Origin: Chloroflexota bacterium
GTDB taxonomy: Bacteria > Chloroflexota > Limnocylindria > Limnocylindrales > CSP1-4
DNA length: 38,337 nucleotides
Direction: 5' to 3'
Assembly (NCBI GenBank): GCA_003152995.1
Contig: PMBR01000130.1
Coordinates: 7,376-45,712, forward strand
Shown here piece by piece: positions 2,207 to 19,607 of the stretch. The notes beneath the pieces are model-generated. The model did not search any database. It saw only the letters and a program-made list of their open reading frames with translations, and was not told the DNA's origin. How positions within the stretch are numbered: position 1 is the first letter of the stretch; each line of letters opens with the position of its first letter. The position numbers were made by a program, and so were the translations under genes.

Positions 2207-3277
2207 TCAAACCCCGGGTTTAGTCCGCCGGTGTCTACGGAAGTACACGATCTGGTCGTATGCGTCTACCGTCGCTGAGGCAATCTGAGGCCACTCGAAG
2301 GCGGTAAGGGGCGCGGTAGGAGCCCGTGTTGTCGTAGTTGCCCAGGAGACGGCGGATGCGAGCGTGTCCGTAGTGAGGGGCCCGCCGTACGTTCTGACCC
2401 ACTCGGCCCCGACGTCCTCGACGAGCTCGGCCATTGCACCTCGATCGGGCACTAGGATCGGGCAGTCGAGCGAGAGCGCCAGCAAAGCGCTTCCGGAGTT
2501 GAGGATGTTCTGGTATGGGAGCACGACCAAATCCGCCGCTCGCACGATCGACTGGAGGTCGCCGTCCGGGATAAACGCAAGGCGCAACAAGATGCGCTCA
2601 TCGCTACCGACGGCGTCGCGTACCTGACGAGCCGTTGTCTCATCCTCTGGGCGGCCTGCAACGACAAGCCGAAGCTTGGGATCTGGTTCTCCCCTGAAGG
2701 CCCGCGCCAGGGCTGGGACGTCCTTATAAGTGCGGACTTGCCCGACGAAAGCTACAACCTTGGCATCAGGGGCAATCCCAAGGTCGGCTCGCGCCGCTGC
2801 GCGATCAGGTGGAGCGGAGAAGACGGCCCGGTAGTGCCCCAATGGGATCACGAAGGAAGGCACGTTGCCGAGAGTTGGCCACCTGCTCACGGCGCCGGAT
2901 AGGCCAGCCCTGCTCGGACTGATGATCCCATCGAGTTGCGAAGTGAAGGCCGACCAGTACCGCTTCTCGATCTCAGGATAGCGGCCGTCGTGCGAACTGA
3001 GGTTATGGACTGTCCAGACGATTGCTGTTCCCCTTGCCCGAGCGATCCTGACCAGCGCTAGGGTTCCAGACACATCACGGATCACGCGCGTTCGGCTCTT
3101 GTCGTTGAGTAGCGCGTCCGGCCAGTGGAGGTGCCAGATGTCGGCTGTCCCGTCCAGCACTCGTCGCGGTCGAAACTCGAGGACATCAACTCCTTCTTTG
3201 GCCACTTCGGAGTAGAGCAGCCAGTTGTAGGGGTTGTCGTGCCGATTGGCGACCGCTGGCCAAGCAACGACCTTCAC
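2207..3277 (-). CDS. GT-B (GT4-like) glycosyltransferase
   Basis: A 356-residue cytosolic glycosyltransferase of GT-B fold. The N-terminal half has the DIWHLHWPD and TVHNLSSHDGR segments typical of acceptor domains. The C-terminal half opens at about residue 170 with VVAFVGQVRTYKDVPALARAF and continues with LRLVVAGRP and the nucleotide-sugar pocket ADLVVLPYQNILNSGSALLALSLDCPILVPD. The usual E-x7-E motif is not obvious; the equivalent stretch is NSGSALLALS, as in a divergent subgroup of GT4. GTG at 3277 has GAGGGT five bases upstream. This is the last gene of the minus-strand operon, 31 bp after the flippase, so it probably adds one sugar to the same repeat unit. Donor and acceptor cannot be read from the sequence. 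Base composition is lower in GC here than in most of the window. Confidence 0.85.
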   Translation of the reverse strand: MKVVAWPAVANRHDNPYNWLLYSEVAKEGVDVLEFRPRRVLDGTADIWHLHWPDALLNDKSRTRVIRDVSGTLALVRIARARGTAIVWTVHNLSSHDGRYPEIEKRYWSAFTSQLDGIISPSRAGLSGAVSRWPTLGNVPSFVIPLGHYRAVFSAPPDRAAARADLGIAPDAKVVAFVGQVRTYKDVPALARAFRGEPDPKLRLVVAGRPEDETTARQVRDAVGSDERILLRLAFIPDGDLQSIVRAADLVVLPYQNILNSGSALLALSLDCPILVPDRGAMAELVEDVGAEWVRTYGGPLTTDTLASAVSWATTTTRAPTAPLTAFEWPQIASATVDAYDQIVYFRRHRRTKPGV

Positions 3278-3308: not shown

Positions 3309-4847
3309 TCAATGAGCGGCTCTGGGTCGCAACAGGATCACGACACAAACAAGCACTAAGGCAGCCAGCATAGCTCCCCGCGCTGCCAGGCCGACATCAC
3401 CTGCTATTGGGAAGAGTCTCGTGGCGGCCACCAGTCCGATCCCGGCTGCGATTCCGCCCAATTGAGCACCGACGAGGACAGTAGCCGGCAAGCCCAGGCG
3501 GCGACTGGCAATGATCGGGATTATGACGTTATCGTCGATGGCCACCACGATGAGCGTGCTCAGGGCGGGTCCGAGCGGCCCGATTGCTGCCGTTAGGATG
3601 ATCGACAAGCATACGTTCACGACGGCCTCTGCAAGAATCACGGCGGCGACCAGAGTGTGTTGGGCGCGGGCGATGAGCATCAAGACAATGACGTGGGAGG
3701 GGACGATCATCACGTACGTCAGGCTGTACACGATCAGGACCGATACGCTGAGCTGAGAAGACTGGCCGGACCACATGTTCATAGCGGTTTGGGACTCGAC
3801 CACTAGGAACCCGAAACAGGCTGAGCCAACGAGGCCTGACAGGACGACGGTACGCCGCAGCAGTCGACCTATGTTCGTTTGCCCCGAATACGCCACAGAT
3901 GAGAATCTGGGGAAGACCACATCGATCAGCGGAAACAGGAAGAACGTGCCATATCGAACGAGCTGACTGCCTGCCGAGTACTGACCGACCTGGCTTGCAA
4001 CGCCAAACGCGCCGACGATGATGACGTCGGTTCCGGAGCCGATCTGAGTCGCGAGTTGCATGAGCATGATTGGGCCGGAGACAGCCGCCAGAGAGCGCAA
4101 GGCTCGCCCGCCTACCCGGTGGGGGACGATGCTGAACCAAGGGATCCGCCGGGTGAGGATCAACGCAAGGGCGCCGCGTCCGGCGATCCGTCCGACCGGT
4201 TGCGCAATAGCGGCCCCGACGATCCCGATGCGAGGAACAAATGCGACGACCACGATGACGGCTATCACGACTTGGACGACATTGGCTGCGAATACGAGGT
4301 CAAATCGCCCTAACCCACGCGCCACGCCCATCCACCCAGCGCTCGTCAGTACCAGCGCGAAATCGACGGCGAGGAAGACTCCGACGATCTCGGCATCTCG
4401 CGCCGGGTCACCTGACAAATGCAGCAGCGCAGGCGTGAACGAGGCAAGGAGCAGCCCGAGACAGAGCCCTATCAGAGAGGCGGTGGCATAGCCGGTGTTG
4501 GCGACGCGCACACGCTCGATGGCCGTGCTGTCGCCCGCATCAGCGCGTGCTGCCTCCCTGGTGGTTGTCTGCGAGAGGCCGAGGTCGAGCAGGGAGAGCC
4601 AGCCCAACAGGGCCACCGTCACAGCCCAGGGAGCGTAGGCGGTGGGTCCGACCGAACGAAACAGGTAGGCCACCAGCAGTGCGCTATAGGCTCCGGGCAC
4701 CAGCGTCGCGCCGAGGTTCCAGAGGCCGAGGCGAGCGATCCCATGGAGAGGATCTGGGTTCGTCGCAGCGCCCGACGACTCCGCCACGTCGGGAATCTCG
4801 TTGATCGTCTCGCCAACGATGTCAGGGATGGCCAATCTCAGTCCCAT
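3309..4847 (-). CDS. Wzx-like polysaccharide flippase (MOP superfamily)
   Basis: A membrane protein of about 512 residues with some 12-14 hydrophobic segments spread over its whole length, as in MATE/Wzx-type lipid-linked oligosaccharide flippases. The first membrane segment follows LHGIARLGLWNLGATLVPG and contains the family-like YLFRSVGPTAY stretch (compare LGxxxYG). In known systems these proteins move undecaprenyl-linked repeat units across the plasma membrane for polymerisation. The frame can be extended to a TTG at 4943, one base after the stop of the preceding gene, but the added 32 residues are Arg/Ala/Pro-rich and look non-coding. I prefer ATG 4847, which has a TACCAT box 16 bases upstream. 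It lies between a membrane-anchored unknown and a glycosyltransferase in the minus-strand operon. Together with its downstream neighbour it has relatively low GC, which may signal transfer. A second complete flippase is at 29692-31182. Confidence 0.85.
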   Translation of the reverse strand: MGLRLAIPDIVGETINEIPDVAESSGAATNPDPLHGIARLGLWNLGATLVPGAYSALLVAYLFRSVGPTAYAPWAVTVALLGWLSLLDLGLSQTTTREAARADAGDSTAIERVRVANTGYATASLIGLCLGLLLASFTPALLHLSGDPARDAEIVGVFLAVDFALVLTSAGWMGVARGLGRFDLVFAANVVQVVIAVIVVVAFVPRIGIVGAAIAQPVGRIAGRGALALILTRRIPWFSIVPHRVGGRALRSLAAVSGPIMLMQLATQIGSGTDVIIVGAFGVASQVGQYSAGSQLVRYGTFFLFPLIDVVFPRFSSVAYSGQTNIGRLLRRTVVLSGLVGSACFGFLVVESQTAMNMWSGQSSQLSVSVLIVYSLTYVMIVPSHVIVLMLIARAQHTLVAAVILAEAVVNVCLSIILTAAIGPLGPALSTLIVVAIDDNVIIPIIASRRLGLPATVLVGAQLGGIAAGIGLVAATRLFPIAGDVGLAARGAMLAALVLVCVVILLRPRAAH

Positions 4848-4944: not shown

Positions 4945-5454
4945 CTACGTCGCGGTCGGCGGCGCCTGGGTCGGCCCGGCCGTAGGCGCGGGGATCTGGC
5001 CGGTCGCCTGGCGGTAGGCGGTCTCGAGTCCGGACCCCGCGGCGACGTTCATGATGGCGACGACCTGACCATTGGAAATGAGCATGTCACCCGTGGCGTC
5101 GACAGGGTCGGTGCCGATCACCTGCACGATCGTTGCGCCGGCCTGCGAGCCCGTGCCGGCTCGGACTTCCGCCGCGCCACTCAGCCGAAGGTAGCCGCCC
5201 GCGTCGTCGTCGAGGAAGCCGACGATGACCGATCCGTCCGCAAGGCGAACTTCCTGGAGGCGACCGCTCTGGGCGAAGCTGCGAGCCTCACCGGCGGTCG
5301 TCAGACGGGACCCAACAAGTGCTCCGCCGCCGATCACCGCGAGCACCACGAGCACGGCCAGGGCGCCTCGGACCAGCTGGGTGGCGCTCGGCAGGTGAAC
5401 CGTCAGGGTCCGGCTCAACGAGCCACCGGCTTCCCGATCATGACCGCCTCCCAA
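4945..5454 (-). CDS. hypothetical membrane-anchored extracytoplasmic protein
   Basis: A 169-residue protein that I do not recognise. Residues 1-27 are cytosolic and one strong membrane segment follows (about 28-50, RGALAVLVVLAVIGGGALVG). The rest would be outside the cell: a small beta-rich region (VRLADGSVIVGFLDDDAGGYLRLSG) with alternating hydrophobic residues, then a Pro/Thr/Ala-rich tail. The overall shape recalls small accessory proteins of glycan assembly machines, but no family motif is visible. TTG at 5454 overlaps the end of the upstream glycosyltransferase by 17 bases, implying translational coupling. A second in-frame TTG at 5418 is possible and still leaves the membrane segment intact. 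The stop lies 97 bases before the preferred start of the flippase gene. A role in export or chain-length control is a guess from position only. Confidence 0.6.
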   Translation of the reverse strand: MGGGHDREAGGSLSRTLTVHLPSATQLVRGALAVLVVLAVIGGGALVGSRLTTAGEARSFAQSGRLQEVRLADGSVIVGFLDDDAGGYLRLSGAAEVRAGTGSQAGATIVQVIGTDPVDATGDMLISNGQVVAIMNVAAGSGLETAYRQATGQIPAPTAGPTQAPPTAT

Positions 5455-6559
5455 GCATCCGCCGGAACAGGAGTTCGTACTGGTCGGTGACGTGGTCCCA
5501 CGAGTACAGCTTCCGGGCTCTCGCCGCCGCCAGCTCGCCCAGATGCTTTCGCTGTTCGGCCGAGCCCACGAGCTGTCGGATCGCGCCCGCCAGAGACGCG
5601 CTCGAATTACGATCGTAGTACGAGCCGGCGTCGCCCAGGACCTCTCGATGTTCGGGGACGTCGTTGGCGATCACGCAGGCGCCGCGGCCCATGGCTTCGA
5701 CCAGGGCCGGATGCGTGCCGCCGACTTCTGTCGCCTGGATGTACGCCGCGCAGTTGGACTGTAGCTCGCCGTAGCCGGTGCCGAACACGTACCCGGGCAT
5801 CAGGACTCCCGGGATCGCCGAGGCCTCTTCGATGAGGGAGCGCTTGTACTCGGTCGCGTACGGCGCGTCGCCCACGATGACGAGCGGCATCCCCAGCGCC
5901 GCCTCGCCACCGGCCTGAGCGTACGCTTCGAGGACCACGTGGGCGTTGTTCTCGGGCTCGAGCCGGCTGACATAGAGGAGATAGCCGTCAGCGCGCAGAC
6001 CGAGTGAGGCGAGAGTCTCCCCGGCCGGCACCCGCGTTGGGTCGGAGCCGTAAGGCAGGTAGAAGGTCTTTCTGCCGTACTTCTCGGTGTAGTAGCGGGC
6101 AATCACGCGAGCGTCGGAGACGAGGACGATCGGCAGCTTGGGCGAGAGCCAGGCGCAGAAGCGGTAGTACGTCCGGCCGGCGAGCCCCCACTTGCCGCGC
6201 TCCCATTCGAGGCCGTCCACATTCAACGCGACCTTGGCGCCGGTGAGGCGGGGCACCAGAGCGAAAGGGGAGTTCGCGTTGTTGCAGATCAAGACGATGT
6301 CAAAGCGGCGGGGGAGAGTGTCGAGCACCGAGATCGCGGTGTGCGCGACCGTGTCGAGATACTTGTGCCGGATCGTCGGCAGCACTCGAAGCCGCATGCC
6401 GAGATGCTCTCGCAGGCCTTCGGGGACGACGTGCGAGCGGCCGTACACCGTCACATGATGGCCGCGCGCCACCAACCGGCTGCCGAGCTGCTCCGCGAAC
6501 GTTTCGAAACCGCCGTAGGCCGCGGGCACTCCGCGTGTGCCCGCAATCGCGATCTTCAT
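5438..6559 (-). CDS. GT4 glycosyltransferase with DUF1972-type N-terminus (rhamnosyltransferase-like)
   Basis: A 373-residue GT-B enzyme. The start MKIAIAGTRGVPAAYGGFETFAE is characteristic of the DUF1972/GT4 group, many of which are annotated as rhamnosyl- or galactosyltransferases of O-antigen and EPS clusters. The C-terminal domain shows GYLLYVSRLEPENN, PLVIVGDAP and the sugar-nucleotide pocket ATEVGGTHPALVEAMGRGACVIA with an E-x7-E arrangement (Glu of TEV and Glu of VEA), as in retaining GT4 enzymes. Two starts are plausible. ATG 6559 gives the family-typical N-terminus. GTG 6601 overlaps the upstream stop as GTGA and has GGAAG upstream, and would add 14 residues. Its 3' end overlaps the next gene by 17 bases, so the operon is tightly coupled here. 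Donor specificity is not determinable. Confidence 0.88.
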   Translation of the reverse strand: MKIAIAGTRGVPAAYGGFETFAEQLGSRLVARGHHVTVYGRSHVVPEGLREHLGMRLRVLPTIRHKYLDTVAHTAISVLDTLPRRFDIVLICNNANSPFALVPRLTGAKVALNVDGLEWERGKWGLAGRTYYRFCAWLSPKLPIVLVSDARVIARYYTEKYGRKTFYLPYGSDPTRVPAGETLASLGLRADGYLLYVSRLEPENNAHVVLEAYAQAGGEAALGMPLVIVGDAPYATEYKRSLIEEASAIPGVLMPGYVFGTGYGELQSNCAAYIQATEVGGTHPALVEAMGRGACVIANDVPEHREVLGDAGSYYDRNSSASLAGAIRQLVGSAEQRKHLGELAAARARKLYSWDHVTDQYELLFRRMLGRRS

Positions 6560-6597: not shown

Positions 6598-7704
6598 TCA
6601 CGGGCGGGCTTCCAGTGGGGCGGACTCGTCCGCCGGCTCGGTCGCAGGCGCCGGCCCGGGAGTCTGTGAAGCGTCCGACTCTTCCAGCGGCCGCTCTGTC
6701 AGATCTCCGAACCAGGTCATGATCTCCTCGTCGTTTGTGGTGCGTCGGCGCATGATGTCGTTGCGGCGGGCCCACAGCCCCGGGATGTTGCGCGCGACAT
6801 CGCTCAGCGCTCGAAGCGACGTTCGTTCGTGAAGGACCACGTAGCCGGCGATCTGGATATCTCGGTACAGGATTCGCTGCCAGTCTCGTCTCAGGCCAAA
6901 CGCCACGTCGTTCTTGAGCACGAGCTGCCATCGGTTGCGGACGGAGTTGCGATTGATTTCGGCCGGCAGGAGCGCCCTGCGCCCGGGCGCGACGCGCCTG
7001 CGGTGCCGCGCGACCGCGGCCGGCGTGTATTCGCATCGCCAGCCGAGCAGCTGGGCACGCCAGGCAAGGTCGACGTCCTCACGGTAGCTGACGAAGGATT
7101 CGTCGTAGATCTCGCCCTCGTAGGCGGCGTTCTCCAGCATTTCTCGACGGTACAGGGCCGCCGCCCCGCTGGGCCCGAACACGTAGCCCGGGGAGAGGTA
7201 ACGGCCCGCGGCCGGTCGATTCGAGCCGCGGTCCGTGACGCGCCGGTTTCGGTGGGCAATCATGCCGGTCGAATCCAGTACGTCGTCCGGCAACTCGTGC
7301 TCGATCAGCTCGTGGGAGTTCCCCATCGCGTCCTCAGGCCGGAAGCGAAGGAGCCGGCCGGAAACGGATCCGATTTGAGGATCGCGCTCAAACGGCGCGA
7401 GCGCCTGGGCCACAAAGTCGTGCCGCAGCCTGGCGTCCGGATTGAGGACGAGGTGTATGTCGGCGGGAGCGAAGGCCATGGCGCGGTTCTGCCCTGCGGC
7501 GAAGCCGAGGTTGACCGGGGACCGCACGAACCGCGCTCCGGGCAACGCGGCGCGGGCGCGGGCCAGCCCGTCGTCGGTCGACGCGTTGTCGAGGATGATC
7601 ACGTCGTCGACCTGCCGAGTCTGAGCGTCGAGCGCGGCCAGACACCCCTCGATGTCGCCGGCCGAATCGTACAGAAGGATGGAGGCGGTGACGGTCAGGG
7701 CCAT
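6598..7704 (-). CDS. GT2 family glycosyltransferase (WbbL-like)
   Basis: A 368-residue inverting GT-A enzyme. The N-terminus MALTVTASILLYDSAGDIEGCLAAL is followed by IILDNASTDDG, the VNLGFAAGQNRAM segment and LNPDARL, which stands at the DxD metal/nucleotide site in the WbbL-type rhamnosyltransferase subgroup. The acceptor-side motif DESFVSYREDVDLAWRAQLLGW carries the expected ED pair acting as catalytic base region. The C-terminal 50 residues are acidic and Pro/Ala-rich and probably disordered. The start at ATG 7704 is chosen because the conserved fold begins there; upstream residues in this frame look random. It sits 124 bases after the preceding glycosyltransferase gene. A cytosolic role, adding a deoxyhexose or similar sugar to the lipid-linked intermediate, is inferred from the subgroup. 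Confidence 0.88.
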   Translation of the reverse strand: MALTVTASILLYDSAGDIEGCLAALDAQTRQVDDVIILDNASTDDGLARARAALPGARFVRSPVNLGFAAGQNRAMAFAPADIHLVLNPDARLRHDFVAQALAPFERDPQIGSVSGRLLRFRPEDAMGNSHELIEHELPDDVLDSTGMIAHRNRRVTDRGSNRPAAGRYLSPGYVFGPSGAAALYRREMLENAAYEGEIYDESFVSYREDVDLAWRAQLLGWRCEYTPAAVARHRRRVAPGRRALLPAEINRNSVRNRWQLVLKNDVAFGLRRDWQRILYRDIQIAGYVVLHERTSLRALSDVARNIPGLWARRNDIMRRRTTNDEEIMTWFGDLTERPLEESDASQTPGPAPATEPADESAPLEARP

Positions 7705-7828
7705 AGGTCCGTCCGGTGCTGGCCGAGGTCCGCCTGAGTGGCGCTCGGCATCGTCGTTCCCACGAGGATGAATTGTGACCGATCCGCGGCGCTGGCGGGG
7801 TGGAGGGCCCGGCCGCCCGACGGTCCAG

Positions 7829-9241
7829 TCATGGGGCCGCCTCCGCGCGCACGCCGGCCAGCACTTCCAGAGCGGTGCGGGCCCGGTCCTGCCACCGGTT
7901 TGCAGCCGCATGCTCGAGTCGGGCCTGACGCGATCCGTCGAGGTGTCCGTCGAGGGCTTCCATCGCGGCCGCCGCAAAGCCAACGGGGTCATCCGCCACC
8001 ACGGCCAGGTCCGGCGGCCAACCGTCTGCCGGCGGAACGGACGTCGAGACGACCGGCACGCCGGCGGCGATCGCATCCCAGGCTTTCATCGCATCCTGGG
8101 AACGCGTGTAGTCGTCGGCGGTATGTGGGACCACAAGTGCACGAGCCCCCGCCACGAACGCCCGAGCCTGGGCCGCCGGCAGTGGACCCACCATGCGAAC
8201 GGAGGAGTGGCCGGCCAGCGCCGCCCACCCGGCCGGCTCGCGCTCCACCGGACCGGCAATGCGCAACGTGGCGCCCTGATGTGCCGCGCCGGCCAGGGCA
8301 TCGGCGACCGCCAGCGCAAGCCGGACGTCGAAGCGCTCGTGGATTCGCCCGACGTAGGCCAGGTACGGCTCGGCCGCGGGGGCGCCCGGGCTCACGTCGG
8401 CGCAGGCGTTCGGGAGCAGGACGGCATGACGCGCGCCCATGGCTGAGAGTCGATCGCGCATGAGCCGTGTGTTGGCGAACACGACGTCGGCGCCTTTGGC
8501 CGCGGCCGAGTACCCGCGCCGCACGGCGTCCAGCCTGCGCCGACCTCTGACGAGCGGCGACAGATCCCAGGCGTCATAGGCGTCGAAGGCCGTGACGAGG
8601 CCGGACACGCCATCGAGCCTTTCGAAGACGCGCGCCGACTTTGGGTCGGCCACCCACAGCACCGTCGGGCCGGAGGTGGCCGCCTCCGCGACGAGGCGCG
8701 CCAGGAAGCCGCTCTCCATTGCACCGTATGGCCAGGGGTGCTCGACCAGCGTGACTCGTGTTCGCGCGACCGAGGCCGCCGTGCCGGTCCCGCGCTCGTT
8801 CGCTCCATCGGCGGCCGGATCGGGCCCGTCCGGTTTCAGTGGCGCCGCGAGGCCAAACCAGGGACCGAACCTTGTCAGCCGCTCGCCGCGCCTCGGAATG
8901 GCCGCCATCGCCCGAACGGCCAGGTCCGGCCGGAGCCGGTTCACCACGGTGACCGCGTCGAAGGCGCCGCTATCGATGAACTGCCGGAGAAGTGCGGCCG
9001 GCCGAGTCGGGATGTCGCTTCCAGAGCGAGCCCGGTGAGGCGAGACGAAGATCAGCGAGCGATCAGGCAAGACTCCGTAGTCCGAGATCCCTACGGCGTG
9101 CGCAACCAGGATGGTCGACGCTACGAGGACGCCGCGAGAGGCGACGAACGCGACGGCCTGGGCGCTCAGGTTCCTGGTCGGGCGTTCGGCCGCGAACCAG
9201 TTGGGGTGAGTGGGGTCGCCGCCCGGTGTGGTCGCCGTCAC
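7829..9241 (-). CDS. GT4-type glycosyltransferase with flippase-like N-terminal extension (chimera)
   Basis: One open frame of 470 residues with two unlike parts. Residues 22-57 (from RNLSAQAVAF to GISDYGVL) form a hydrophobic helix followed by a YG motif and look like the first membrane segment of a Wzx-type flippase. From about residue 58 (PDRSLIFVSPHRARSGSD) the protein is a soluble GT-B glycosyltransferase: VLWVADPKSARVFERLDG, AFDAYDAWDL, GADVVFANTRLMRDRL, YLAYVGRIHERFDVRLAL, and the C-terminal donor pocket YTRSQDAMKAWDAIAAGVPVVST. GTG 9241 overlaps the polymerase stop as GTGA, which is why I chose it. TTG 9070 (codon 58) would give the bare transferase but has GGAG only two bases away. 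Either the gene arose by deletion fusing a flippase 5' end to a transferase, or the helix serves as a membrane anchor. Confidence 0.75.
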   Translation of the reverse strand: MTATTPGGDPTHPNWFAAERPTRNLSAQAVAFVASRGVLVASTILVAHAVGISDYGVLPDRSLIFVSPHRARSGSDIPTRPAALLRQFIDSGAFDAVTVVNRLRPDLAVRAMAAIPRRGERLTRFGPWFGLAAPLKPDGPDPAADGANERGTGTAASVARTRVTLVEHPWPYGAMESGFLARLVAEAATSGPTVLWVADPKSARVFERLDGVSGLVTAFDAYDAWDLSPLVRGRRRLDAVRRGYSAAAKGADVVFANTRLMRDRLSAMGARHAVLLPNACADVSPGAPAAEPYLAYVGRIHERFDVRLALAVADALAGAAHQGATLRIAGPVEREPAGWAALAGHSSVRMVGPLPAAQARAFVAGARALVVPHTADDYTRSQDAMKAWDAIAAGVPVVSTSVPPADGWPPDLAVVADDPVGFAAAAMEALDGHLDGSRQARLEHAAANRWQDRARTALEVLAGVRAEAAP

Positions 9242-10707
9242 CGCAGACGCTGAGTCGCCGTTCGCAGCAGCGGCAGGCCGGCTGCGGCGAAGACCAGGAT
9301 GGCGGCACCGATCATCGGGAAGACGCTGGCTACGGACAGGCCGCCCAGGTTGGCGTTGACGACGGCGATGATCGCGTATGCGTACAGCGCCCACCATGCG
9401 GGGTCGTTGCGGACCAGAGCGCAACGGTACAGCCACGTGAGGACGAAGCCGAGGATCAGCGGCACGAAGAACCACCCGGGCGGCCCGAAGTTGGCGTACG
9501 ACTCTCCCAGGAGGCTGGGCACGGTTCCGCCGCCGGCGTAGACCTGACCGAGAGCGGTCTTGATGTCCTGGTCGAAGGTCGTCTGGTGCCCCGGCATCGT
9601 CGTCAGCAGAGGCTGGATGTATGTATAGCCGAGTCGCCACGACAGGTGCGCCGGCACGGCCGCCATCGTGAGATTGGTGTTCTGGACGGGGACGATCAGG
9701 TAGGCGCGCAGGGCCAGCTCCGTCAGGCCCACATAGTCGTGCACTTGCACCGCCCGCTTGATGTCGGGGTTGTTCCATGTCTCGGGGCTGTGCTCGAAGC
9801 GGTAGGCGCCGACCAAACCCGCGGCCACGATCACCACTGCCACTATCCCGGCCAGGCCGACCAGCAAGCGAGGGGTCACTCGGCGAATGCCCCAAACGAG
9901 AAGTCCCGCGAGCACGGAGACCTCGACCACGAGGAAGGCGTTGGATCGATTTGCCGTCGCGAGTTGGAGACAGGCTGTCGCCAGGACGGCTGCTCCTGAA
10001 GCCGCCAGCCAGCGCCACGATCTGCTCGAGACCGCCACCGCGATCAAGAGCCACGTGCCGGGCAAGGCGAGCAATGACAACACCCGCAGCGCGCTGCCGC
10101 CGCGATTCGACGCCTCAACTCGCCCCTGCTCAACCGATGACATGAAGAGTGGCACGCCGCCGATGCGGACCAGGTAGAGGACGATCGCTACGAGGCCGAC
10201 GATTACCAGGGCGACGGCCAGGGTCAGCAGGAATCGGTCGACGGTCCGAGTCGAGGGAGCATCGGCGGGCTGGAGCTCCGTGGCCGAATCGCTCCGGCTC
10301 CATGCGATGCCTATGCCGGCGAGCATGCCGAGAACGGCCAGAACCACGCCAGCCAGTATCGCGACTCCGTGCACTGGACCGGGCAAGCCGTACACGACGA
10401 AGCCTGCGCCGTAGAAAAGGATGAGCCCGGCAACCGCTGCCACAGCGGGCGATGCGAAGGCGAGTCTTCGACCGGCGAAGGCGTCCCGGTATGCGGCCGC
10501 CATTCCGCGCGTTATGGCCGTGGCGAAGACCCGGAGCCCCCCCCGTTTTGGCAGGCTATCTCCAGCGTTCGGCTCGGTCGTGCCTGCGCCCGGTCGGGGC
10601 AGGCCTTCTCGTTCGTCCCCGATGATCTCGGACCTCCTCATTGCGGCGCGAAGGCACAGGGTACGGGCAGAAGTGGGAGCAGGCCTGGCGGAGTCCATGT
10701 CGTGCAT
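9238..10707 (-). CDS. O-antigen/EPS polymerase (Wzy-like, oligosaccharide repeat unit polymerase)
   Basis: A multi-pass membrane protein of up to 489 residues with about 11-12 hydrophobic segments. A large extracytoplasmic loop follows GAYRFEHSPETWNN, and the C-terminal signature GESYANFGPPGWFFVPLILGF is typical of oligosaccharide repeat unit polymerases. These enzymes join flipped repeat units block-wise on the outer face of the membrane. It is the first gene of the seven-gene minus-strand operon and overlaps the next gene by four bases (GTGA). The start is uncertain. ATG 10707, ATG 10695 and ATG 10641 are in frame; the last has TACCCT 17 bases upstream, and the residues before it carry no recognisable feature. 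The cytosolic N-terminal tail before the first membrane segment is about 80 residues or shorter, depending on the start. Confidence 0.85.
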   Translation of the reverse strand: MHDMDSARPAPTSARTLCLRAAMRRSEIIGDEREGLPRPGAGTTEPNAGDSLPKRGGLRVFATAITRGMAAAYRDAFAGRRLAFASPAVAAVAGLILFYGAGFVVYGLPGPVHGVAILAGVVLAVLGMLAGIGIAWSRSDSATELQPADAPSTRTVDRFLLTLAVALVIVGLVAIVLYLVRIGGVPLFMSSVEQGRVEASNRGGSALRVLSLLALPGTWLLIAVAVSSRSWRWLAASGAAVLATACLQLATANRSNAFLVVEVSVLAGLLVWGIRRVTPRLLVGLAGIVAVVIVAAGLVGAYRFEHSPETWNNPDIKRAVQVHDYVGLTELALRAYLIVPVQNTNLTMAAVPAHLSWRLGYTYIQPLLTTMPGHQTTFDQDIKTALGQVYAGGGTVPSLLGESYANFGPPGWFFVPLILGFVLTWLYRCALVRNDPAWWALYAYAIIAVVNANLGGLSVASVFPMIGAAILVFAAAGLPLLRTATQRLR

Positions 10708-10981: not shown

Positions 10982-13849
10982 TTGCTGGATCCCCGTCGTC
11001 CCAGCGCACTCAAGGGGGGGCGCCGCTGGGTTCTTGTGGCCGCACTACTTGGTTTGCTATTGCCGGCAATTCCGGCGGTCGCGCTCCCCGTCGCCGCGGC
11101 CAGCACCCAGACCGCGGTGATGGACAACTTCGACGTCGCCAGCCCGACGTGGTATGTCAAGAGCGGCCCGGGGACGGTTGCCCAGTCCGGCAATACCGCG
11201 CTCGCTCTGTCTTACAACTTCGCCTCGGCCGGCCAGATCATCGTCGCGCCCAAGCTGACTCGCCCCGACCTGCCGGGTCTTCCTCGACGCGTCTGCGTCG
11301 ATGTCGACGGTGATGGCAGCTGGAACGTCGTCGACATGCAGCTGCGCGACTCGACCGGTGAGATCTTTCACTATCGCCTGGGCAACTTGAGCTTCACCGG
11401 CTGGAGCACGCTCTGCGTACGTCCGGGCACGGACGCGCCGGCGGCGACGATCGGCGGCAACGTCGACGGCGTGGTGGATCTTCCGTTGGCCATATTCGGC
11501 CTCGTATTGGACAAGAACCCAGGCGGAAAGGCTGTGACCGGCCGGGTCCTCTTCGACGACCTGCGAGTCGAATACGAGGCATGGACGCCGCTCAGCTCCG
11601 CCGCGGCCGTTTTCGTCCCCAGCGCCGGTCAGACCACGACCCTCCGCCTTGGCCTCCAGGAGGCCGCAACGTTCGTCGCCACTCTGACCGACGAGGCCGG
11701 ACGAACTCGGACCTGGAACGGGACCACGAGCGGGGGTGGGGCGCAGCAGTCGCTGGCGTGGAACGGGACCGACTCCGCCGGCACCGCCATGAGCGGGTCC
11801 GTTCGAGCTCGGCTGAAGATCACGCGCAGCGGCGTGTCCCAGACGGTAGGCGTGCCGTATCTCGCGGGGCTGCCCGCCAGATACGAGCCGGCCAGCCCCG
11901 GTTCGATCGTCGGGATCAACTCCTACGTCGACACGATCAACACCAGCGAGCGATCGTCGGCCGAGACGCAGGTTCGATTGATGGAGTCGGCCTACGTCCG
12001 CCAAGCCCGCGAGGAGTTCGACTGGCATCTGATCGAGCCCAGGCAGGGCTGGTTCGAGTGGGCCAAGTTCGACCAGGCGGTCGAGATCATGCAAGCTCAC
12101 AACATCGCCGTCCTGGGCAAGCTCCTCTCTCCGCCGTCCTGGGCCAGCTCGGCGCCTTCTGGGTCGGGGTCATCGCTTCTGGGTTGCTACCCGCCGAGCA
12201 ACACCGCCGACTATGCCGCCTACGCCCGAGCAGTTGTGCATCGTTACAAGGACAGGGTGCACGTGTGGCAAGTCTGGAACGAGGAGAACTGGGCCTCGGC
12301 CTGGTGCCCTGCACCGAACGCGACCGCGTACACGGCCCTGCTCAAGGCGGCCTACGCGGCCATCAAGGCTGAAGACCCGACCGCGACCGTGTTGATCGGT
12401 GGCCTGGCGGCCTCCGACCGCACCTTCCTCGACAAGATTCGGGCTGCCGGCGGGTGGAACTCGTTCGACGCTGTCGCGATCCACACCTACGTCAACGGAG
12501 CGCCCGAAGTTAGCATAGCCGGACAGTGGTTGGACGAGATGCGGGCCTACGTCGACTCCGTTGGCCGCAAGCCCATCTACATCACCGAGTTCTCATGGTC
12601 GACGTCCACCGGATCGGGCGTGAGCCTGGCGGCCCAGGCCGAGTACCTGTCGCGGTTCTATCTGATGGCCGCCAAGGCGGGCATCGCCGGCGTCTTCTGG
12701 TTCCAGTTCCAGGCCCACAGTCCGAGCGCCAGCTCGGTGGACGACAACTACGCCGTCGTCAACTACGACGGCACGACGCGGCCGGCGTACGCGGCCCTGC
12801 GTAGGGTCGGTGAGGCGCTCGACCAGGGAAGCGTCCTCGGAGACGCAGACCCGAACGCAGCCACGCGCCAGGTCGCCGACAAGATGGCCTCGACCAGCGG
12901 TTGGACGGCCATGCCTCTGGGGGGCGGTTCCGCCAAGATTTCGACTTCGACATCGGTCGGCCACGGCGACTCCTCGTCGATGGCGGTGGGCTACTCCTTC
13001 ACGTCGTCTTCGACTGGAGTAGAACTCCGGCGCAATCTGACACTGCCGGGCAAGCCCACATCGGTTGCCCTATGGGTTCTCGGCGACGACTCCGCCAGTC
13101 CGGTACACATCAAAGTCACTGATGCCACGGGCGAGACATTCCAGGCCCGGGTGGGCAGTCTCCAGCCAGGCTGGCAGCGACTCGTGTTTCAGTTTGACAA
13201 GGCTTCCTTAAGCGGGGCGCACAGCGGCGGTGATGGCGACGGCGTGATCGACTATCCGGTCAGCCTGACGTCGGTGTTCATCTACCGCGGCAACCTGGGT
13301 CACCTGAGTGGCACGGCCTACCTCGACGATGTACAGGTCGAGAGCGGGCTCTCGGTGAGGGGGTTGGCCGTGAGTCGTCGCGGGGGCGTAGAGCAGATCC
13401 TCTACACGCTGTCGTCTCCGGCGAAGCAGATCGTGCCGACAACCGAACCCAGCTGGATCGCCGACGGCTCGACGACGACTGCCGTCTCGGCATCCGGCGG
13501 GGTCGTGAGCACGAGCCTGTCGGGCCTGCCTGTCAACATCCTCAGTTCGCCGGCCCTGACCGCACCGAGTGTCCTGATCCACGCCAACGGCACCCGGACG
13601 GCCACGGCCGTTCGCTGGCCGGCGGGGGACGGCGGGAGCTACACCCTGCAGATTCTCGACAAGAACGGGAGGCTCCTGACCACCTTGCCCCGCGTGTACG
13701 TTTCCGCCGGCATCGCGTCGGCGTCCTGGGATGGCTCGATCGGCGGCAAGGCAGTGGCAGTCGGCTCCTACAAGCTGATCGTGGTCCTGACCGGCGTCGA
13801 CGGTCGCGTCACCAAGCTTGGCAAGTCGGTCACCGTCGCCGCTGGGTAG
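10982..13849 (+). CDS. secreted multidomain glycoside hydrolase (clan GH-A, GH39/PslG-like) with flanking jelly-roll and FlgD-like modules
   Basis: A 955-residue exported protein. Residues 1-40 form a signal peptide (Arg-rich start, WVLVAALLGLLLPAIPAVA core, AAA site). Then come a jelly-roll-like module (about 45-200), a FlgD-like Ig module (210-285, LAWNGTDSAGTAMSG) and a TIM-barrel hydrolase (about 295-625). A second jelly-roll module (630-790) and a second FlgD-like module (about 850-955, ASWDGSIGGKAVAVGSY) follow. In the barrel, WNEEN places the acid/base at Glu434 and ITEFSW the nucleophile at Glu536, the clan GH-A pattern. The PslG group of GH39 cleaves exopolysaccharide in its own biosynthesis locus, which fits this context (inference). 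TTG 10982 is preferred over GTG 10961 because GGAGG lies seven bases upstream. It is divergent from the polymerase operon. Confidence 0.85.
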   Translation: MLDPRRPSALKGGRRWVLVAALLGLLLPAIPAVALPVAAASTQTAVMDNFDVASPTWYVKSGPGTVAQSGNTALALSYNFASAGQIIVAPKLTRPDLPGLPRRVCVDVDGDGSWNVVDMQLRDSTGEIFHYRLGNLSFTGWSTLCVRPGTDAPAATIGGNVDGVVDLPLAIFGLVLDKNPGGKAVTGRVLFDDLRVEYEAWTPLSSAAAVFVPSAGQTTTLRLGLQEAATFVATLTDEAGRTRTWNGTTSGGGAQQSLAWNGTDSAGTAMSGSVRARLKITRSGVSQTVGVPYLAGLPARYEPASPGSIVGINSYVDTINTSERSSAETQVRLMESAYVRQAREEFDWHLIEPRQGWFEWAKFDQAVEIMQAHNIAVLGKLLSPPSWASSAPSGSGSSLLGCYPPSNTADYAAYARAVVHRYKDRVHVWQVWNEENWASAWCPAPNATAYTALLKAAYAAIKAEDPTATVLIGGLAASDRTFLDKIRAAGGWNSFDAVAIHTYVNGAPEVSIAGQWLDEMRAYVDSVGRKPIYITEFSWSTSTGSGVSLAAQAEYLSRFYLMAAKAGIAGVFWFQFQAHSPSASSVDDNYAVVNYDGTTRPAYAALRRVGEALDQGSVLGDADPNAATRQVADKMASTSGWTAMPLGGGSAKISTSTSVGHGDSSSMAVGYSFTSSSTGVELRRNLTLPGKPTSVALWVLGDDSASPVHIKVTDATGETFQARVGSLQPGWQRLVFQFDKASLSGAHSGGDGDGVIDYPVSLTSVFIYRGNLGHLSGTAYLDDVQVESGLSVRGLAVSRRGGVEQILYTLSSPAKQIVPTTEPSWIADGSTTTAVSASGGVVSTSLSGLPVNILSSPALTAPSVLIHANGTRTATAVRWPAGDGGSYTLQILDKNGRLLTTLPRVYVSAGIASASWDGSIGGKAVAVGSYKLIVVLTGVDGRVTKLGKSVTVAAG

Positions 13850-13852
13850 CAT

Positions 13853-13879
13853 GCCGGCGCGTCCTGAGGGACGCCCGGC
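13853..13879 (+). terminator. hairpin after glycoside hydrolase gene
   Basis: GCCGGCGCGTCC and GGACGCCCGGC form an 11-bp stem with one bulged base and a four-base TGAG loop, three bases after the stop codon. No T-tract follows. It is probably the 3' end of the hydrolase transcript, because a separate promoter box precedes the next gene. Confidence 0.55.
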
Positions 13880-14011
13880 AATCTGAGCCCTTCGTACCCC
13901 GGCTTCGGCGGCCAGTTCCGCCGACCGGCCACACGTGAGGCGTCGCGTGGAATAGCGGCCCGCGTGTCCGTGTGTCTTCGCGCGCGTTCGCTGCGCCTTC
14001 GGCGTCTCCCG

Positions 14012-14017
14012 TACAAT
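14012..14017 (+). promoter_or_regulatory. -10 box for O-antigen-ligase-type gene
   Basis: TACAAT lies 38 bases before the preferred TTG start at 14056. Transcription would begin near 14025, giving a short leader that contains AAGAGG (14045-14050). It falls inside the longer open frame beginning at 13972 and argues against that start. Confidence 0.45.
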
Positions 14018-14055
14018 GCACGCTGGTTGGCCCACCCGCCCGGCAAGAGGACCCA

Positions 14056-15504
14056 TTGATCGTCATCCTCGTCGCGATCGCAGTCTGCCTGCTGCTGCTG
14101 GGTATCTGGTCCGCACTCCATCCGTATGACGCCCTCATTCTCCTGCTCGGCCTGCTCGTATTCCACAGCGGCGCGGTGCACGTGCTGCAGAACGTCTTTC
14201 AGATGGACAGCCGGCTGCTCCTCCTCCTGAGCTCCTGGAAGGAGGTCGTGATCGCCGGTGTGGTCGTGGCGGCGCTCGTTCGGTTTCGGCGACGACCCTT
14301 TCGCCCCGATTTCATCGCCCTCGTGGTCATCGCGTTCCTGGGCCTGATCGGAATCCGTGTCGCACTGGACATGGTCGCCCGGGTGGGGTTGTCCGACGAA
14401 CTGCTCGGGGCGCGCAATGCGAGTGAGTTCGCGATCCTGTTCCTGGCAGTGACGATCCTCGCGCCCGACGTGGCGTGGCTGCGCCGGGCGAGCTGGGTGC
14501 TCGTGCCGCTGGTGCTGCTGGCCGCCGAGGTGGGCATCGTCCAGCTACTGTTTGGCTTCCGGTTCTACAACGTCCTGTATCACGCTCCCGGCGAGGTCCT
14601 GACATCCGCGTTCTCGGCCAAGTTCGGCGGGCTCATCGTCCCGCGAGCGGTGGGGACCTACACGGCTCCAAACGAGTTCGGTCTTGGGCTCGTGATCTAC
14701 CTCGTGGCGATCTTGTTGCCACTGGCTTTCACTCGTCTCAATTCCGCGACTCGAACTCTTCTGGCAGTCGCCGCGACCCTCGCGTGCCTGGCCCTGGCGC
14801 TTACATACTCCCGAAGCGCCTGGCTTGGCGTCGCACTGGCCGTGCCGGTGGTAGCCCTCCTGCTCAGACGTCCAATCGCCCGGTGGGTCGACGCGCACCG
14901 CAGGCGCGGCATGGCTCACATGCGAATGATGACCATGTGTTTGGCCGCCATCGTCGTGCTGGTCGGCGGCGTCTTCGTGGTATCCGGAGGATTTCGTTTC
15001 CTTGTGACCACGCTGACGGGCCAGGAGGCCAGCGCGGCCGGGCGACCAACTTCGCTCTCGAACGGCATCGAGGCGTTGCTGAGCCATCCGTTGGGAGGTG
15101 GGCTCACCTCCGCGGGTCCCAAGGCCAAATCCTTGAACCCGACCGCAGTACTGACTGAGAACTGGTATCTCGTTTACGGGATTCAGCTCGGTTGGCTCGC
15201 ACTCGCGGCCCTCTGCACCTTCGCAGCAGCGTGTCTGGTCTCGCTCGCGAGACGAGTCAACGCGACCCTGACCTCGATCGACGCAGTAACGGAGCGGGTG
15301 GCGTTCCAGGTTGGCGCCATAGGCGCTCTGTTGGCCGCCCTCGGCGGCGCTCTATTCATTCCCGCGCTGTTGGACCTGCCGGCATCTCTGACCGTCTGGA
15401 CGTTTGTAGCGGTAGCGCTGGTGCCTGCAACCGTCGAACCTGTAGATGCACCCACTCGACTCGATACGGCCGAGGCTCAGCCTCCTGCTGCCCCGGCAAC
15501 CTAA
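14056..15504 (+). CDS. O-antigen ligase / polymerase family membrane protein (Wzy_C type)
   Basis: A 482-residue polytopic membrane protein with about 11-12 segments beginning at once with MIVILVAIAVCLLLLGIW. The conserved extracytoplasmic region has GTYTAPNEFGLGL and the YSRSAWLGVAL segment typical of the O-antigen ligase/Wzy_C family. Near the C-terminus is HPLGGGLTSAGPKAK, followed by ENWYLVYGIQLGWLALA. Family members transfer a polyprenyl-linked glycan to an acceptor or polymerise it on the outer face. With a Wzy-type polymerase already present at 9238, this one may act as a ligase or serve a second glycan. The frame is open from GTG 13972, but I prefer TTG 14056: AAGAGG is five bases upstream, a TACAAT box lies within the extra stretch, and the 28 extra residues look random. 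It is followed 25 bases later by the repeat protein. Confidence 0.82.
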   Translation: MIVILVAIAVCLLLLGIWSALHPYDALILLLGLLVFHSGAVHVLQNVFQMDSRLLLLLSSWKEVVIAGVVVAALVRFRRRPFRPDFIALVVIAFLGLIGIRVALDMVARVGLSDELLGARNASEFAILFLAVTILAPDVAWLRRASWVLVPLVLLAAEVGIVQLLFGFRFYNVLYHAPGEVLTSAFSAKFGGLIVPRAVGTYTAPNEFGLGLVIYLVAILLPLAFTRLNSATRTLLAVAATLACLALALTYSRSAWLGVALAVPVVALLLRRPIARWVDAHRRRGMAHMRMMTMCLAAIVVLVGGVFVVSGGFRFLVTTLTGQEASAAGRPTSLSNGIEALLSHPLGGGLTSAGPKAKSLNPTAVLTENWYLVYGIQLGWLALAALCTFAAACLVSLARRVNATLTSIDAVTERVAFQVGAIGALLAALGGALFIPALLDLPASLTVWTFVAVALVPATVEPVDAPTRLDTAEAQPPAAPAT

Positions 15505-15529
15505 TGCACGACCGAAAAGGAGCCAAACG

Positions 15530-16675
15530 ATGAACGACCTGCCTCGTGGGGCGCGCTGGTCTCTGATTGCAGCGATCGTGCTCGGGCTGCTGCTGGCGGG
15601 CCTGGGCGCCGGCGCGGTCATCGGGAGTCAGGCTTCCTCCTCGACAACCGGGCCGTCCAAGGTCCGGGCGGCGACCGGCTCCAACGCTCTGGAGGTCCAC
15701 CAGACAGGGAGCGGCACGGGAATTCAAGCCGACGCGATCGGTGGCAGCGCCGCCATCTTCAGCAGCACGCAATCCGACACCACCAAGTCGATCACTGCGG
15801 GCAGTGCCTCGTACGGTGTATACGCAGCGAATGACAGCGACCTGAACGCCGGCGGGGCAGCGGTCCGGGCCCAGGGAAATCAGAACGACGGCGTCGTGGC
15901 TACTTCCGACAACGCCCAGGCGGCGGCAGTCCGGGGCCAGAACGGCACCACGAACGGCGTCGCCATCTGGGGTTCGAACCCCGGCACCGGTATCGGCGTC
16001 TTCGGTGTCGCAACTGGGTCCCCGGGCGCGCCTGGTCCGATCGTCGGCGTGGCCGGCCAGGCCGGTTCGGCCAACGGCATCGGTATCTTCGGCTTCAACC
16101 AGGCCGGCGGGCAGGCCGGCTACTTCTCGGGCGCGGTAACGGTCACGCGCGATCTCGATGTGAGAGGAGCGATCGTCGGGTACACGGCCGTGCCGGCATT
16201 CAACGGCAGCTCTCTCACCATGTCCAAGGGTGACGCGGTTTCGATTCTGGGCGTACGCCACGGCCCCAGCGGGTCGTATCTCCTCGTCGTTGGTCCGGCC
16301 TCCAGGGGACAGGCTGTGGTCGGCATCGTCGATCGCCAGGTCAAATTCACGACCGTCCCGGTGCCTGGGGCCCAAGCGAACGGCGCCGGCGCGCTGCAGG
16401 CGAGCAGCAGCAATGCGACGGTCATGACCCGTGTAAGCGACACCTCCGGCCCGGGCTCCACCTTGCTCGTGGTCACCGGCGGCATCGTCAGCGTGGTCAA
16501 TGTCAGCGCAGATACCGGACCTGTGATTCTGGGGGCTCTCCTAGTCGCCGGCGATACGCCCGGACAGCTGGTTGCGGCGGGACCGTCGCCGGCCCCCGGA
16601 ACGGTCGTCGGCTACGCGTTGCAGAGTGTCGTCAGCGGGACCACCCAGATCGCCGTCCTCGTCCAGCCGCGCTGA
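15530..16675 (+). CDS. hypothetical membrane-anchored glycine-rich repeat protein
   Basis: A 381-residue protein without a recognised enzyme family. After a short basic tail (MNDLPRGARW) there is one membrane segment (about residues 11-34), so the rest should be extracytoplasmic. Residues about 45-210 consist of degenerate Gly-rich repeats (GVYAANDS, GVVATSDN, GVAIWGSNPGTGIGVFGVATGS, GVAGQAGSANGIGIFGFNQAGG). This periodicity resembles beta-solenoid or fibre shafts in surface and tail-fibre-like proteins. The C-terminal 180 residues are rich in Val/Gly/Ser/Thr with predicted beta strands. ATG 15530 has a strong AAGGAG at 15516-15521, which overrides the longer frame starting at 15446. It follows the ligase-type gene by 25 bases and is probably co-transcribed. 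A structural or glycan-carrying surface protein is an inference from shape and place. Confidence 0.7.
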   Translation: MNDLPRGARWSLIAAIVLGLLLAGLGAGAVIGSQASSSTTGPSKVRAATGSNALEVHQTGSGTGIQADAIGGSAAIFSSTQSDTTKSITAGSASYGVYAANDSDLNAGGAAVRAQGNQNDGVVATSDNAQAAAVRGQNGTTNGVAIWGSNPGTGIGVFGVATGSPGAPGPIVGVAGQAGSANGIGIFGFNQAGGQAGYFSGAVTVTRDLDVRGAIVGYTAVPAFNGSSLTMSKGDAVSILGVRHGPSGSYLLVVGPASRGQAVVGIVDRQVKFTTVPVPGAQANGAGALQASSSNATVMTRVSDTSGPGSTLLVVTGGIVSVVNVSADTGPVILGALLVAGDTPGQLVAAGPSPAPGTVVGYALQSVVSGTTQIAVLVQPR

Positions 16676-16716: not shown

Positions 16717-18015
16717 ATGATTGAGTCGTATCACCTCACTGTCGTCGGCGCCGGCTACGTCGGCCTGGCCACCGCGATCGGGCTCGCGTCGAAGGGCCAC
16801 ACGATCGATCTGATGGAAGTTCGGAGCGATCGCCTCGAGGCCTTGCGCGCGGGCGAACTCCCCATCCATGAGCCAGGAATGGACGCGGCGTTCGCAGATC
16901 CGGCGATCCGGGCTCGAGTCCATCCCGTGTCTGGGCTACCGGACGGCCCGTCCGATCTGATCCTGGTCTGCGTAGGCACGCCGATGGGGGAGAACGGGCG
17001 GAGCGATCTCCGGCAGCTCCAGAGCGCCCTGGAGGCGGCCCGGCCGCTGGTCCAATCGGGCGTCCCGCTGGTCATTCGCAGCACCTTGCCTGCCGGATCC
17101 AACGATCAGATCGTTCGTTGGGCCGGCGGCGATCAGACCCGAATCTTCAGCAACCCGGAGTTCCTGGCTCAGGGCCGGGCGCTGGAAGACTTCCTGGCCC
17201 CCAGTCGCGTCGTTATCGGAACCTTCCCCGAGGCTGATCCGGCCGCACTCGCGGTCGTCAAGGCCGTCCTCGGGGGCGGGAGTTGTCCCCTGCTCGTTGT
17301 GACGGTGGCCGAGGCCGACCTGATCAAGAACGGCTCCAATGCCTACCTGGCCCTGAAGCTTTCGTACGCCAATGAGCTGGCAGTTCTGTGCGAGGAGCTC
17401 GGGGCAGACGTCATGACGGTCATCGAAGGCATCGGGCTGGACCCGCGTCTCGGTCGCAAATACATGCAGCCGGGTTTTGGGTTCGGCGGGAGCTGTCTTC
17501 CAAAGGACCTCCGGTCCATCACCAACGTCGGCCGCGACCTTGGCCTGGAGATGCACGTGACATCTGCCGCTTCTGAGGCCAACGAATCTCACCAAAGGCG
17601 ATTTGCCCGGCGTGTCATCTCGGTTCTCCCACCGGGCTCCAAGCGAGTGGCGATGCTGGGCCTTGCCTTCAAGGCCGGCACAGACGACGTCCGCTCTTCG
17701 CCGGCTTTGCGGGTGGCGGAGTTGCTGATCGGCCGTGGCCTCGAGGTCGTTGGCTACGACCCCTTCGCCGCCCACGACGCCGCGTTGGCGCTGCCGGGCC
17801 TGAGGCTCGCGGCTACGGCAGAGGAAGCTCTGGCTGGGGCCGGAGTGGCAGTCATCGGGACCGAATCGCCGGAGTTCATCGACCTGGACTGGCGTGCCAT
17901 CGCCGCGACGATGGCATCGCCGGTCGTTGTCGACGGCCGGCGCGTGCTTGATGGCTCCACCATGAGAGCGCTCGGGTTCCGATATGAGGCGGTTGGGGCG
18001 CCGACCTCGGCGTAA
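16717..18015 (+). CDS. ugd: UDP-glucose/GDP-mannose dehydrogenase family, probable UDP-glucose 6-dehydrogenase
   Basis: A 432-residue cytosolic NAD-dependent dehydrogenase that would oxidise UDP-glucose to UDP-glucuronate in two steps. The N-terminal Rossmann motif is VVGAGYVGLATAIGLASKGH. VCVGTPMGENGRSDL, IRSTLPAGS and FSNPEFLAQGRALEDF follow. Lys204 (EADLIKNGSNAYLALKLSYANELA) and the catalytic Cys260 in GFGFGGSCLPKDL are in place. The C-terminal UDP-binding domain starts with VAMLGLAFKAGTDDVRSSPAL. The length matches bacterial Ugd. The NPEF (rather than SPER) motif and FGGSC wording favour UDP-glucose over UDP-HexNAc; compare the second family member at 21415. No ribosome binding site precedes the ATG, but a -10 box does. 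Its product could feed the epimerase/dehydratase at 24044 and the glucuronate-containing glycans. Confidence 0.92.
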   Translation: MIESYHLTVVGAGYVGLATAIGLASKGHTIDLMEVRSDRLEALRAGELPIHEPGMDAAFADPAIRARVHPVSGLPDGPSDLILVCVGTPMGENGRSDLRQLQSALEAARPLVQSGVPLVIRSTLPAGSNDQIVRWAGGDQTRIFSNPEFLAQGRALEDFLAPSRVVIGTFPEADPAALAVVKAVLGGGSCPLLVVTVAEADLIKNGSNAYLALKLSYANELAVLCEELGADVMTVIEGIGLDPRLGRKYMQPGFGFGGSCLPKDLRSITNVGRDLGLEMHVTSAASEANESHQRRFARRVISVLPPGSKRVAMLGLAFKAGTDDVRSSPALRVAELLIGRGLEVVGYDPFAAHDAALALPGLRLAATAEEALAGAGVAVIGTESPEFIDLDWRAIAATMASPVVVDGRRVLDGSTMRALGFRYEAVGAPTSA

Positions 18016-18046: not shown

Positions 18047-19516
18047 TCAACGCCCCGTGAGCATCGCGGGGACGGTCTTGAGCACGATCTTGAGATCGAG
18101 CCACAGGGACCACGAATCGATGTACTCGAGGTCTTTCTCGACCCATCGGTCGAACTCGGGGCACCGACGAGCGCCTATCTGCCACAGGCCCGTCATCCCG
18201 GGCTTCATCGAAAGCCGCCGACGGTGCCAGATGTCGTAGCGCGCGACCTCGCTCGGCAGCGGTGGACGGGGTCCTACGAGGCTCATTTCACCTCGCAGGA
18301 CGTTCCAGAGCTGGGGCAACTCGTCCAGAGACGCCTTCCGCAGGAACCGGCCCATGCGTGTGACCCTCGGGTCGCTCTCCAGCTTGAAGGCGTGGCCCTG
18401 GATCTCATTGCGATCGCTCAAGTCGGCGAGCTGGTCCTCGGCATCGAGGCACATGCTGCGGAACTTGACGAGGGTGAAGGTGCGGCCGTGCAGTCCGACT
18501 CGTTCCTGATGGAACAGCACAGGTCCCCTGGAGTCGAGTCTCACCAGGATCGCGAGCAAGGCCATGATCGGTGAGGTCAAGAGCATGACGATCGCGGAGC
18601 CGATCAAATCGATGAAACGCTTGGCCATCAGCCCGACGGCACGGTCCGGACCGTTCGCCAGCGAGTAGACGCCTACGCCGTCGATGTTCTCGACGCGACC
18701 CAACGACAGGACCCGATCCACAGGGGCCGCGGGGATTCGTACGACCTTGCCTTCCTGCTGGCACAGATGGGCGGCCTGCTCGATCAGGTCCTCCATGGCG
18801 AAGGGGAGGCAGATGGCGACTTCGTCCACGATTCGGCTGTGGAGGATGGTCTCGAGGTCTTCGTCTGAGCCGAGCAGTGGCCGGGTCAGGTAGACGCCGT
18901 TGTCCGAGGGGCCGGCCTTGAGGTGGCCGATGACCACCAGCCCTAGCTCCGGGTGGCTCTCGACCATGTTGGCGAAAGCCTTCGCCCTGGCGTTGGCCCC
19001 GAGGACCAGCATGTAGCGAACGTTGCGGCCATGGTTTCGAAGTTGCACCAGCAACAACCGCATGGCCACTCGCAACGTGAACGCAGCGACGATCAGCAAA
19101 GGGAAGACGAACAGAAGGAGAAGCCGGCTGACGTCTGGCAGCTTGAAGAGGAAAAGCGCGCTCAGGGTCATCATCAGCAGCACGACTGCCGCGCCGATGA
19201 CCTCGCTCAGCTCGCCTTGCATGGTCCAGTGTGATCGGCCGCGGTATAGGCCGCGCATCCAGAGAAGGCCTATCCACGCCCCGATGAACGCGCCAACCGC
19301 GAGTCGGGGATCGGGAAGGGATTCGCCCAGTGCATCCGTCCATTCCAGGGCCGGTCCAAACCTGAAGCTGGCCGCGACCACGAGGACCGCCAGCGCGGCC
19401 ATCGCGTCCGCAGCCATCAGGACAATCTGGAACAGGGCGGCGTGGCGACGGATCATACGCCCCTGCGCTTCCTCCCCTTCCGGCACAAACGGAAAGAGGC
19501 CGGACGTGCCCTGCAT
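18047..19516 (-). CDS. polyprenyl glycosylphosphotransferase initiating exopolysaccharide (WcaJ/WbaP type)
   Basis: A 489-residue membrane enzyme that starts glycan assembly by moving a hexose-1-phosphate from a UDP-sugar to undecaprenyl phosphate. About four to five membrane segments occupy residues 28-158. A Rossmann-like CoA-binding-type domain follows (YMLVLGANARAKAFANMVE, 168-290). The C-terminal bacterial sugar transferase domain (about 295-489) has AKRFIDLIGSAIVMLLTSP, RGPVLFHQERVGLHGRTFTLVKFRSM, SLDELPQLWNVLRGEMSLVGPRPP and PGMTGLWQ. The length is standard for the large PHPT class. ATG 19516 has GGGGGAAG four bases upstream, but its AT forms part of a TACAAT box. If that box is the promoter, ATG 19456 would be the start. 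It is divergent from the second LCP gene and convergent with the dehydrogenase gene. A second possible initiator lies at 22950. Confidence 0.93.
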   Translation of the reverse strand: MQGTSGLFPFVPEGEEAQGRMIRRHAALFQIVLMAADAMAALAVLVVAASFRFGPALEWTDALGESLPDPRLAVGAFIGAWIGLLWMRGLYRGRSHWTMQGELSEVIGAAVVLLMMTLSALFLFKLPDVSRLLLLFVFPLLIVAAFTLRVAMRLLLVQLRNHGRNVRYMLVLGANARAKAFANMVESHPELGLVVIGHLKAGPSDNGVYLTRPLLGSDEDLETILHSRIVDEVAICLPFAMEDLIEQAAHLCQQEGKVVRIPAAPVDRVLSLGRVENIDGVGVYSLANGPDRAVGLMAKRFIDLIGSAIVMLLTSPIMALLAILVRLDSRGPVLFHQERVGLHGRTFTLVKFRSMCLDAEDQLADLSDRNEIQGHAFKLESDPRVTRMGRFLRKASLDELPQLWNVLRGEMSLVGPRPPLPSEVARYDIWHRRRLSMKPGMTGLWQIGARRCPEFDRWVEKDLEYIDSWSLWLDLKIVLKTVPAMLTGR

Positions 19517-19520
19517 TGTA
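19515..19520 (-). promoter_or_regulatory. candidate -10 box overlapping the 5' end of the glycosylphosphotransferase gene
   Basis: TACAAT on the minus strand overlaps the first in-frame ATG. If used, transcription would start near 19508 and translation at ATG 19456. It is the same hexamer seen at 14012 and twice at 26055-26095. The overlap with a possible start codon keeps confidence low. Confidence 0.3.
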
Positions 19521-19592
19521 CTTCCCCCGGTAAGAGGGCGGTGCGGAAGTCCCGGTCAGGCCGTCCAAGAGCGCTTGCGGACCTGCCTGTGT

Positions 19593-19598: not shown

Positions 19599-19607
19599 CC
19601 GACCACT

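Follow-up and report, generated by a model that had tools for sequence, protein, structure and literature searches.

A composite gene in a polysaccharide gene row is probably a deletion scar, in which the 5′ end of a wzx flippase gene has been joined in frame to an intact glycosyltransferase gene. The gene lies within the window (the whole 38,337-nucleotide stretch of DNA analysed here), and its sequence supports a composite product, a flippase-like first transmembrane helix (TM1) followed by a GT4-like enzyme; from this we infer the deletion event, the ancestral gene order and the translation and activity of the product. The preliminary description had left two readings side by side, a scar or a transferase that has gained a membrane anchor. 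We favour the scar because the helix resembles a flippase TM1, because relatives of the transferase have no such helix, and because the same interval has been truncated separately in a genome of the same genus (G002). The anchor is the weaker of the two, as it faces a problem of topology.

The window is part of contig C36 (G000:C36) of a draft genome of 3.05 Mb in 140 contigs. The row is on the minus strand and consists, in order, of a Wzy-type polymerase gene (9238–10707; PF01901, 5e-9; PF14296, 2e-6), the composite gene directly downstream of it (7829–9241), and, all assigned by Pfam except the flippase, a GT2 glycosyltransferase gene (6598–7704; 67% identical in G002), a DUF1972/GT4 glycosyltransferase gene (5438–6559; 85% identical in G002), an intact flippase gene (3309–4847) and a GT4 glycosyltransferase gene (2207–3277). 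This flippase has no Pfam match at 0.01 and matches a flippase profile whose building set included it; it could supply flippase function for the row. A second intact flippase is encoded elsewhere in the window (29692–31182, plus strand; sub-cut-off MurJ match only), and the two share only 24% identity in pairwise alignment. A PF13440 search of the window's own genome, which is 73% complete, gave no match at 1e-6, so no other part of that genome showed the missing flippase body. A secreted-looking protein without Pfam match is encoded at 15446–16675, between Wzy_C ligase and UDP-sugar dehydrogenase genes, and has a partial match in G002.

The composite frame runs for 470 codons without a stop from GTG 9241, and its coordinates and GTGA overlap with the polymerase stop are as the preliminary description gave them. 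The mechanical open reading frame reaches back into the polymerase gene as far as GTG 10054; GTG 9241 is the sensible start. Third-position GC is 0.86 over codons 1–57 and 0.81 over the remainder, and the frame is coding-like throughout from 9241. GTG 9241 lacks a clear ribosome site; since it overlaps the polymerase stop, it is likely to be translationally coupled to it. The only other common start codon before the first strand of the transferase, and thus the candidate alternative start, is a TTG at 9068–9070 (minus strand), with a GGAG two bases upstream, a spacing shorter than usual. This TTG encodes residue 58, which places the end of the flippase-like part at residue 57/58, a correction to the preliminary description. 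No promoter-like or terminator-like site was found between 7650 and 9300.

Residues 20–58 (9068–9184, minus strand) form a hydrophobic helix that ends in SDYGVL and resembles TM1 of Wzx-type flippases by profile, controls and hydropathy. Its 19-residue Kyte–Doolittle hydropathy (KD19) of 1.98 (residues 29–47) lies mid-range among flippase TM1s (1.38–2.42), and it sits where a flippase gene coupled to the polymerase would be expected to start. Conventional searches are silent on it: no Pfam or NCBIfam model matched residues 1–58, a direct sequence search with these residues returned noise only, and a PDB sequence search with the whole protein was empty, while one with residues 1–58 gave matches at chance level only. 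A flippase profile was built from 52 proteins of relatives, which were gathered with the two flippases of the window and PF13440. Residues 26–57 align ungapped to the TM1 region of this profile and to no other part of it (model positions 58–89; 7–8 bits). A TM1-only profile gives the helix 9.6 bits, a score equalled by 2 of 5,000 full shuffles, by 22 of 5,000 hydrophobicity-preserving shuffles (hydrophobic core in place), by none of 761 windows cut from five membrane proteins encoded in the window that are not flippases, and by a single one (a tie) of the 467 non-flippase transmembrane windows that were scored. A profile of the PF13440-like subset does no better (6.8 bits; 61 of 4,997 shuffles as high).

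The mean Smith–Waterman score of the helix against the 52 flippase TM1s is 29.1, reached by none of 2,000 shuffles and by none of 471 non-flippase transmembrane windows (best control, 27.1), which we chose ourselves from open frames without flippase similarity. The maximum score against any single TM1 is not exceptional (56, compared with up to 63 for Nramp windows); among single sequences, the helix is matched best by L103, a PF13440 flippase from G033 (RGAVALAVRHVSVRAATIIGTVLLARLLSPSDFGV against RNLSAQAVAFVASRGVLVASTILVAHAVGISDYGV). Genuine TM1s mostly score far higher in leave-one-out tests, placing the helix at the low end of the family. The flippase-like N terminus with a terminal YG motif noted in the preliminary description is thus supported, by a likeness that is weak but above chance in the controls, and a flippase origin of the helix is likely on this evidence. 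Beyond TM1 nothing of a flippase is present: residues 59–470 score −1.3 bits with the flippase profile, and the composite has one hydrophobic segment only, compared with the 12–14 transmembrane helices of a Wzx/MOP flippase. In Wzx/PF13440-type flippases of the MOP superfamily, TM1 including its terminal Y/F-G motif aligns with residues ~20–58, whereas the composite lacks everything that follows and cannot work as a flippase.

The remainder of the frame is, as first described, a GT4-type enzyme. It comprises residues 59–470 (7832–9067, minus strand), of which residues 292–430 match Glyco_trans_1_4 at 3e-11, above the curated Pfam cut-off, and its first strand lies at residue ~61 (SLIFVSPHR). 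Relatives of the transferase in the phylum are distant (about 22–37% identity over parts, none above about 37%). Those with a judgeable start begin a few to some fifteen residues ahead of the first strand, with start sequences such as IVCLSHLRWDFVWQRPQ corresponding to SLIFVSPHRARSGSD at residue ~61; this register was aligned by eye, as BLAST fell short of the N terminus for most. None of the 21 relatives examined has an equivalent N-terminal helix. Their most hydrophobic segments reach KD19 values of 1.0–1.7, compared with 1.98 in the composite, with one exception that lies far downstream of the transferase in a 788-residue frame. With relatives starting near residues 58–61 and without a comparable helix, the transferase looks complete without the first 57 residues. 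Compared with GT4-like glycosyltransferases carrying Glyco_trans_1_4, the composite is full-length by sequence, with the first strand in register, and differs in having the N-terminal helix. An AlphaFold2 model made from a shallow alignment has a mean pLDDT of 39 and is too poor to interpret for a GT-B fold with its two Rossmann-like domains.

The preliminary description suggested looking for relatives in which an intact flippase gene lies between polymerase and transferase; no genome searched has this arrangement, as close full-length relatives of either gene are absent from the collections searched. The composite protein has no close relative in genome-contig, viral-contig or plasmid collections, none among 177 genomes of the class (best, 34% identity, partial) and only partial matches of at most 35% identity among 400 genomes of the phylum; for the polymerase, the collections yielded only a scrap in G002. 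A flippase gene lies downstream of the transferase in three loci of transferase relatives (L003, L005 and L022) and within 1.5 kb upstream of it in none, so these neighbours give no support for a flippase-then-transferase order. The gene order around three GT2 homologues (38–40% identity, other genera) was not comparable; the GT2 query of that comparison was out of frame, and only its non-GT2 genes count. Finally, no fusion of a flippase TM1 to a glycosyltransferase was found described among the titles and abstracts that literature searches listed.

G002 is the only genome found to share this stretch. Three blocks of C36 align by blastn with contig C43 of G002 in the same order: 12728–15171 (the GT2 and DUF1972 genes; 78%), 17690–17825 (the early polymerase) and 18259–19999 (a glycoside hydrolase gene; 83%). 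Between the first two blocks the window has 2,518 bp and G002 has 28 bp, and in the junction alignment the end of similarity is visible on both sides. The interval missing from G002 (7797–10314, minus strand; blastn and junction alignment) covers most of the polymerase gene and the whole composite gene, and about 47 residues of the polymerase are matched in a 99-codon frame at 66% identity. It thus seems that the body of the polymerase gene, together with whatever separated it from GT2, was lost in G002. The interval being unstable in G002, a deletion in the lineage of the window is credible.

Other features of the G002 locus can be noted. Its polymerase scrap (L039:12100–12232, G002:C43), directly upstream of GT2, adds another decayed polysaccharide gene to this interval. 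Two transferase genes that are absent from the window lie between the scrap and the hydrolase gene (12048–14719 of L039). G002 has its own flippase gene beyond the DUF1972 gene, and the N terminus of that flippase does not rank with the best matches to the helix of the composite. The spacer between the composite gene and GT2 (window 7705–7796) is conserved in G002 despite the loss of the preceding gene. A promoter or an extended GT2 start may lie in it; no sigma-70-like site was found there.

Three other explanations compete with a scar. The helix might resemble TM1 by coincidence and have no relation to flippases, being simply a signal-anchor or an ordinary N-terminal extension, as the lack of Pfam and NCBIfam matches, the low profile score, the few shuffles and one control window that equal it, and the Nramp windows that match the maximum single-sequence score would allow. 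We consider this unlikely, given that the mean similarity to the 52 TM1s exceeds every control, that the match is located at TM1 and ends in a YG motif, and that the transferase relatives have no such extension. A misjoin near 9070 that dropped the flippase body from a draft metagenome assembly is quite improbable: a random misjoin would not be expected to fall right where the transferase begins and also to preserve the frame without a stop, and the genes flanking both sides are syntenic with G002. It is, however, in a 140-contig, 73% complete draft that the junction stands, and variable polysaccharide loci can assemble poorly.

A slightly more remote prospect than a coincidental helix is that the full fusion is the working protein, a functional membrane-anchored transferase that gained the first helix of a flippase as an anchor near the polymerase. 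In its favour, the frame has no stop and a coding-like composition from GTG 9241 onward, a start coupled to the polymerase is plausible there, the ribosome site of TTG 9070 is poorly spaced, and the helix is hydrophobic enough for membrane insertion. However, the N terminus of MOP flippases is cytoplasmic and TM1 crosses outward, so a fusion keeping this topology would place the enzyme outside the cytoplasm, away from nucleotide sugars, and the architecture is shared by no relative found. The charges on either side of the helix roughly balance each other and give no guide to its orientation. That TM1 was co-opted as an anchor and inserted in reverse, keeping a cytoplasmic transferase inside beside polymerase and flippase, seems to us very doubtful. 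Against the deletion scar itself count the weak likeness to TM1 (about 10 bits, less than nearly all genuine TM1s score), the lack of any flippase-like remnant besides TM1, the draft state of the assembly at the junction, and the fact that no relative was found with an intact wzx between polymerase and transferase.

We propose that a deletion removed wzx from just past its first transmembrane helix as far as the beginning of the gene that followed. This next gene, for a soluble GT4-like glycosyltransferase, would have been left complete and fused in frame to the wzx 5′ end. The lost flippase would be dispensable, because the locus retains another intact one (3309–4847). The transferase is probably still made, either from TTG 9070 at the junction or as a fusion coupled to the polymerase stop, and is predicted to attach a sugar to the lipid-linked repeat unit at the cytoplasmic face. 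In the simplest picture, the dead 5′ end of a flippase gene would precede an intact cytoplasmic transferase, produced by initiation at TTG 9070 or as a fusion with a tolerated helix.

A deletion scar, the most likely reading, would be ordinary for fast-changing polysaccharide gene clusters. Among known systems it is close to polysaccharide (cps/EPS) loci altered by deletion or recombination, such as pneumococcal cps loci (PMC3541774, PMC6700660), where a variable locus set between conserved flanks has lost genes and kept remnants; the present case differs in that two neighbouring genes of an uncultured bacterium are joined in frame. The composite would be a concrete case of variable polysaccharide loci losing genes, a process able to create in-frame chimeras. 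If the fusion is the working protein, a helix of a transport protein would have been reused as an enzyme anchor; otherwise the composite is mainly a warning that the annotation 'membrane glycosyltransferase' may here rest on a scar.
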